From NCBI GenBank assembly GCA_023489335.1, contig JAMDCP010000007.1:124001-188000 (forward strand): a DNA stretch of 64,000 bases. Reading direction: 5' to 3'. Each line of letters opens with the position of its first letter. The first letter of the stretch is position 1. The stretch is from Deltaproteobacteria bacterium (lineage in GTDB: Bacteria > SZUA-79 > Acidulodesulfobacterales > Acidulodesulfobacteraceae). Made by a program: the position numbers and the translations under genes. Positions 59,659 to 59,741 of the stretch are shown here, in pieces. The notes beneath the pieces are model-generated. The model worked only from the letters and a program-made list of their open reading frames with translations, was not told the DNA's origin and made no database searches.

Positions 59659-59714
59659 AAAAAAAACGCCATAACAAAAGGGACGAAATGCGTAAATCCC
59701 TTTAATTATGGCGT
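59659..59714 (-). terminator. intrinsic terminator in the nifH leader
   Basis: Minus: ACGCCATAATTAAAGGGA...TCCCTTTTGTTATGGCGT followed by TTTTTTTT. Confidence 0.85.
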
Positions 59715-59741
59715 CATCGCCACAAGCGCCCACTTGCGCTT
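59709..59741 (-). promoter_or_regulatory. tandem hairpins upstream of/overlapping the nifH leader terminator; candidate ANTAR target
   Basis: P1 AAGCGC-AAGTGG-GCGCTT (59724-59741), P2 TGGCG-ATGA-CGCCA (59709-59722); P2 shares 6 nt with terminator stem. Confidence 0.65.

Follow-up and report, generated by a model that had tools for sequence, protein, structure and literature searches.

A candidate ANTAR-controlled attenuator with a variant P1 loop in the nifH leader of an uncultured lineage from acid environments

The DNA analyzed here, called the window in the following, is a stretch of 64,000 nt from the genome of a Deltaproteobacteria bacterium, and it harbors a nif gene cluster on its minus strand. 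The features that are relevant for the expression of the cluster are compiled in Table 1. The start of nifH at 59602 is preceded by a GGAGG motif, and the predicted sigma-54 transcription start is located about 106 nt upstream of P1, the first of two leader hairpins. The original prediction had stated that an ANTAR response regulator is encoded in the same gene cluster, and this was confirmed by the Pfam domains of the protein and by the position of its gene, which sits within the nif cluster between nifX and two PII genes. These two PII-family (NifI-like) genes (48857-49629, minus strand) follow the ANTAR gene and are not inserted between nifH and nifD. The region from nifH to nifD (56474-58531, minus strand) encodes a radical SAM protein with the NifB-like motif CNISCNYC, a methyltransferase, and a ferredoxin, and a methyltransferase between nifH and nifD is kept in the nif clusters that were examined across the order. 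Several strong inverted repeats, and no U-tract on the operon strand, are present in the gap between nifH and the nifB-like gene (58581-58690). They are possibly transcript-stabilizing hairpins that raise the level of the nifH mRNA.

Table 1. Features of the nifH leader, nifH, and the ANTAR gene in the window.
Feature	Position	Strand	Basis
Sigma-54 (-24/-12) promoter of the nifH operon, predicted	59859..59874	-	Sequence TGGCATGAAAATTGCT
Hairpin P1, 6-bp stem and hexaloop AAGUGG	59724..59741	-	Leader alignment and pairing statistics
Hairpin P2 (antiterminator) UGGC-GAUGAC-GCCA	59709..59722	-	Alignment; recurrence at nifH of family f231
Intrinsic terminator stem ACGCCATAAT...GTTATGGCGT	59666..59714	-	Pairing across aligned leaders
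U8 tract of the terminator	59659..59666	-	Sequence; T run kept across the leader alignment
nifH, first gene of the operon	58739..59602	-	Pfam Fer4_NifH, E 1.9e-125
ANTAR response regulator (receiver + ANTAR), predicted antiterminator protein	49690..50298	-	Pfam Response_reg 9.1e-23, ANTAR 1.3e-18

Two tandem hairpins, a short linker, and a terminator with a run of eight U residues had been claimed for the minus strand, and all of these elements were found to be present as placed. P1 reads AAGCGC-AAGTGG-GCGCTT, and a single G (59723, minus strand) links it to the second hairpin, P2. In the case of P2, position and sequence also stood, but the tetraloop reading (TGGCG-ATGA-CGCCA) was given up in favor of a hexaloop (TGGC-GATGAC-GCCA), because the G1-C6 pair that would generate the tetraloop in the window is missing in 10 of 15 relatives, in which the loop reads AA(T/C/A)G(A/G)C. 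The 3′ arm of P2 lies within the 5′ arm of the terminator stem, and therefore, P2 and the terminator exclude each other. Folding of the leader in silico yielded -34.6 kcal/mol, compared to -22.6 ± 3.4 kcal/mol for shuffled sequences (z = -3.6), and none of 200 shuffles equaled the native value. In addition, a composite pattern was searched for, i.e., a hexaloop hairpin followed by a second hairpin with a G at loop position 4 (G4), the 3′ arm of which pairs with a U-tailed segment. It matched once in the 64-kb window, at the nifH leader, and shuffled windows contained 0.25 matches on average. For the leader of the window and the loci of six relatives, no Rfam family reached its gathering score, and a weak match to mir-268 turned out to be the terminator stem. 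No consistent NifA sites (TGT-N10-ACA) were found upstream of the sigma-54 promoter. By itself, the sequence of the window gives modest support to an attenuator, and we regard the conservation in relatives as the decisive part of the evidence.

This conservation was analyzed with a set of 30 genomes from the order; 22 contained nifH, and 21 nifH leaders were readable. The relatives of the window genome are recorded as SZUA-79, which we take to be Ca. Acidulodesulfobacterales. For acid-mine Ca. Acidulodesulfobacterales, the nitrogenase genes have been reported to be expressed (PMC6776010). Each of the 21 readable nifH genes is preceded by a sigma-54-like element, irrespective of the presence of the attenuator, and 15 of the 21 leaders had the same layout of a sigma-54 promoter, P1, a 1-nt linker, P2, and an overlapping terminator. 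Alignment of the nifH leaders of relatives had been suggested as a check together with the original prediction, and it revealed that the hairpins are kept. Compensatory changes were seen in each of the two hairpins as well as in the terminator. The P1-P2 region of the 15 leaders could be aligned in register without gaps. The fraction of paired cells was 96.7% for the stem of P1, with double changes at two pairs, and 100% for the stem of P2, the outer pair of which is changed from CG to UA in five leaders. For both hairpins together, 98% of the cells were paired and three pairs were changed on both sides, and the respective values for the terminator were 93.8% and seven pairs. None of 500 shuffles scored as high as the real alignment in pairing or in covariation, and when the pairing scheme was slid, only 29–64% of the cells were paired.

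The original prediction had also proposed that the second hairpin blocks the terminator by a shared arm. At column 43 of the alignment, the bases of the P2 5′ arm, the shared arm, and the terminator 3′ arm are C-G-C in nine leaders, U-A-U in five, and U-G-C in one. The covariation of this column with both partners directly supports, on comparative grounds, a pair of structures that exclude each other. An intrinsic terminator is clearly present, as it would also be if it acted constitutively to set a low basal level or to insulate nifH, and P1 and P2 were nothing but by-products of its sequence. However, P1 lies outside of the terminator and is nevertheless kept in all 15 leaders with compensatory changes, the 5′ arm of P2 tracks the changes in the shared arm, and the terminator is missing where the ANTAR gene is missing (see below), so that a constitutive terminator is very unlikely. 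Even less credence can be given to a ribosome-controlled attenuator, in which the translation of a leader peptide would select the structure. A GGAG-like ribosome-binding motif does occur upstream of P1 in 8 of the 15 leaders (59788-59793 on the minus strand in the window), and in two leaders a two-codon ORF, ATGAAATAA, is located behind it, but the motif is missing in the other seven leaders and the reading frame is not conserved.

The ANTAR domain of the 49690-50298 protein is the sole one that was found in the genome. Its receiver domain has a complete phosphorylation site, and D17, D18, D61, T88, and K115 are invariant in eight orthologues. Of the 15 genomes with the leader, 13 have the ANTAR gene, in one copy and between nifX and PII wherever this region is assembled. 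In the other two genomes (G009 and G021), the contig stops inside nifD or nifN, short of the ANTAR site. The six nifH loci without the leader all belong to one genus, g2. The clusters of three g2 genomes (G001, G002, and G005) have the identical nif gene order minus the ANTAR gene between nifX and PII, and in the other three (G004, G006, and G007), no ANTAR domain was found in the whole genome. The sigma-54 promoter has been kept in g2, and the terminator is missing along with the ANTAR gene. Among the eight genomes devoid of nifH, seven are also devoid of ANTAR, and the eighth has an ANTAR gene on a short contig. A 3-kb contig with the gene order nifN-nifX-ANTAR-PII-PII (L139, G005:C145) was present in a g2 bin, where it duplicates a nif segment that the bin already holds. 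It resembles genus g3, and a contamination from g3 is likely, albeit not proven. In an unrooted NifDKEH tree, the ANTAR-bearing genome G028 was found to be the sister of g2. The simplest reading of these distributions would be a joint loss of the leader and the ANTAR gene in g2, unless the tree is to be rooted on the stem of g2. As g2 is a single clade, the co-occurrence of leader and ANTAR represents essentially one evolutionary event.

The range of possible targets was analyzed with R1, a covariance model built from P1-P2. In each of the 15 leader-bearing genomes, the one strong match was the nifH leader, with E values from 4e-18 to 3e-11. Weaker matches followed in G014 and G004 (E values of 1e-5 and 9e-4), and these were read as lying within coding sequences, one mnmG-like and one prenyl-synthase-like. 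The nifH leader is the single target within R1 only, and this model would miss a diverged target whose stems differ. At the ammonium-transporter loci, no P1-P2 leader was found, and the sole pattern match at these loci (L180) did not resemble a leader. In the EutV/EutW system of Enterococcus faecalis, EutW is a HisKA_2-type kinase. In contrast, no HisKA_2 kinase was found in any of the 30 genomes of the order. A kinase adjacent to the amt gene does not stand out as the partner of the ANTAR protein; genomes with and without ANTAR both contain it.

The hexaloops of ANTAR-controlled leaders are characterized by A1 and G4, which matter in the nasF leader of Klebsiella, the target of NasR (PMC3369931), and in both loops of the eut leaders in vivo, where linker length is important as well (PMC3369931). 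Induction dropped strongly when the eutP linker was cut to 3 nt (PMC3369931), and for actinobacteria a range of 2–25 nt has been used for the linker between the hairpins (PMC8164766). In the case of EutV, Tyr164 forms a stack with G4 of the loop, R142, K149, and E160 read this base, and M172 fills the loop; the revised view of EutV action assigns the role of recruitment hairpin to P1 (PMC8934654). The original prediction had expressed doubts whether the loops of the nifH leader follow the A1/G4 rule. The doubts turned out to be well-founded for P1, which has U4 instead of G4 in all 15 leaders, together with an invariant A2 and with A (13 leaders) or G (two leaders) at position 1. They apply to a lesser degree to P2, which has the consensus YGGC-[A/G]ANG[A/G]C-GCCR and contains G4 in 15 of 15 leaders and A1 in 10. 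The other five P2 loops, including that of the window, have G1 and are able to close into a tetraloop. With full stems, the linker has a length of 1 nt in all 15 leaders, in contrast to 5–12 nt in eut, and it would be extended to 3 nt if the outer two pairs of P1 were open. Because the G4 rule fails in P1, we classify the leader as a variant among ANTAR-controlled leader RNAs and not as a canonical member.

The protein also deviates from EutV. The RNA-contact residues R142, K143, K147, K149, E160, and M172 of EutV are kept in the ANTAR proteins of the order, whereas the position of Tyr164 is occupied by His, or by Leu in G028, and that of R175 by Gly. Among 48 other sampled ANTAR domains, 43 have Phe or Tyr at position 164 and four have His. 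His164 is not unique to this lineage; these four are found among 18 lower-scoring ANTARs. The altered P1 loop and the altered residue 164 coincide in the lineage, a coincidence that does not demonstrate co-adaptation. As a tentative idea, for which the chances are somewhat below even, we propose an altered ANTAR code, in which a P1 with an invariant U4, a linker of just 1 nt, and a tolerance for G1 are read by an ANTAR domain with a change from Tyr to His or Leu.

An independent comparison was offered by ANTAR-bearing genomes outside of the order. Seven of the sampled ones have a nifH-like gene, and one of the leaders (G340) contains a P2-like hairpin over a terminator. In family f231, which is related to the order at the domain level only, ANTAR was found in 57 of 60 genomes, nearly always in a single copy. 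In 26 of 30 nifH leaders that were read, the hairpin GGC-AANGGC-GCC was located 19–49 nt past the predicted sigma-54 start, and its 3′ arm lies within a U-tailed terminator in the subset of leaders that was inspected for it. No convincing P1 was found before the P2 of f231, save a weak A+T-rich one in G340 (AATAA-AAAGTT-TTGTT), which has A1, G4, and a 1-nt linker. Thirty of 30 ANTARs of f231 have Tyr or Phe at position 164. The order differs from f231 in both respects, as P1 is universal in its leaders and residue 164 is His. The P2 loop code purine-A-N-G-purine-C is common to two distant ANTAR-bearing groups, the order and f231, which ties P2 to ANTAR recognition. The nifH leader of f231 (L266 and L291-L318) is possibly a single-hairpin ANTAR attenuator, and the comparison suggests that P1 may be dispensable over evolution, or may have been replaced by an element not recognized here. 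Should the altered code be true, its combination with the P2-only leaders of f231 would mean that evolution can dispense with the upstream hairpin and can recode it independently of P2. Three nifH arrangements can now be compared, i.e., P2 alone (f231), a non-canonical P1 together with P2 (the order), and neither leader nor ANTAR (g2). They form a natural mutant series for the puzzle that eut requires two hairpins although one hexaloop suffices for binding.

A genuine attenuator might also be operated by another factor, e.g., an RNA-binding protein, a small molecule, or a different regulator, with the ANTAR protein acting elsewhere. The departure of the P1 loop from the A1/G4 rule and a linker shorter than in eut (PMC3369931) would be compatible with this explanation. 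It is nevertheless unlikely, as leader and ANTAR gene are present or missing together, P2 recurs at nifH in the unrelated ANTAR-bearing family f231, the ANTAR protein would be left without a visible target by the lack of a second R1 match in the genomes, and Rfam did not assign the leader to a family. The original prediction of a candidate ANTAR antitermination switch is supported by the conservation of the leader, its absence together with ANTAR from g2, and the presence of P2 at nifH of f231, and with considerable confidence, though on comparative grounds, we propose that this leader attenuates transcription of the nif operon under the control of the ANTAR protein.

The alternative structures, their covariation, and the linkage between leader and ANTAR gene can be read from the sequences directly; for ANTAR binding, phosphorylation, the direction of control, and feedback, we infer the following course of events. 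RNA polymerase would start from the sigma-54 promoter, and by default the leader would fold into the strong terminator, so that transcription would stop before nifH. After activation of the ANTAR response regulator, presumably via phosphorylation and dimerization, the protein would bind to the hexaloop hairpins, P1 serving to recruit it and P2 acting as antiterminator. With P2 held closed, the 5′ arm of the terminator would be occupied, and RNA polymerase would read through into nifH. The operon released in this way would comprise nifH, the nifB-like gene, the methyltransferase and ferredoxin genes, nifDKENX, the ANTAR gene, and the two PII genes. Provided that the cluster is transcribed as a single unit, the ANTAR gene would be part of the operon that its product releases, which would generate a positive feedback loop. 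This feedback, although unproven, is plausible, as the genes from nifH to ANTAR are on the same strand with short gaps, the largest of which (207 nt) follows nifH, and a simple terminator scan of the operon strand from nifH to ANTAR gave one weak match only, which is inside nifD. The input signal is probably the nitrogen status.

The arrangement resembles several known systems. As in the eut leaders controlled by EutV/EutW, a receiver-ANTAR protein is combined with an upstream P1 and with a P2 hexaloop hairpin that overlaps the 5′ arm of the terminator. Similarly to NasR and the nasF leader, an ANTAR protein would cancel a leader terminator, but NasR senses nitrate by its NIT domain, whereas here the input domain is a receiver with a complete phosphorylation site. 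In Geobacter, GnfR acts by antitermination. The gnfR and gnfK genes have been named for Geobacter sulfurreducens (PMC7962754), and an ANTAR regulon for nitrogenase was predicted in Pelobacter carbinolicus in 2012 (PMC3369931). ANTAR control of nitrogen-fixation genes would be shared with these two cases, and f231 may be part of the same group. Control of nitrogenase leaders by ANTAR proteins is of an already known kind, of which this lineage would have a variant. A literature search for ANTAR control of nif in this lineage did not retrieve a description. A deep-branching uncultured lineage from acid environments joins those with an apparent ANTAR gating of nitrogenase after sigma-54 initiation. 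Apart from the nif cluster, the window also contains a SAM riboswitch (RF00162, 88.5 bits) at 9042-9146 on the plus strand.
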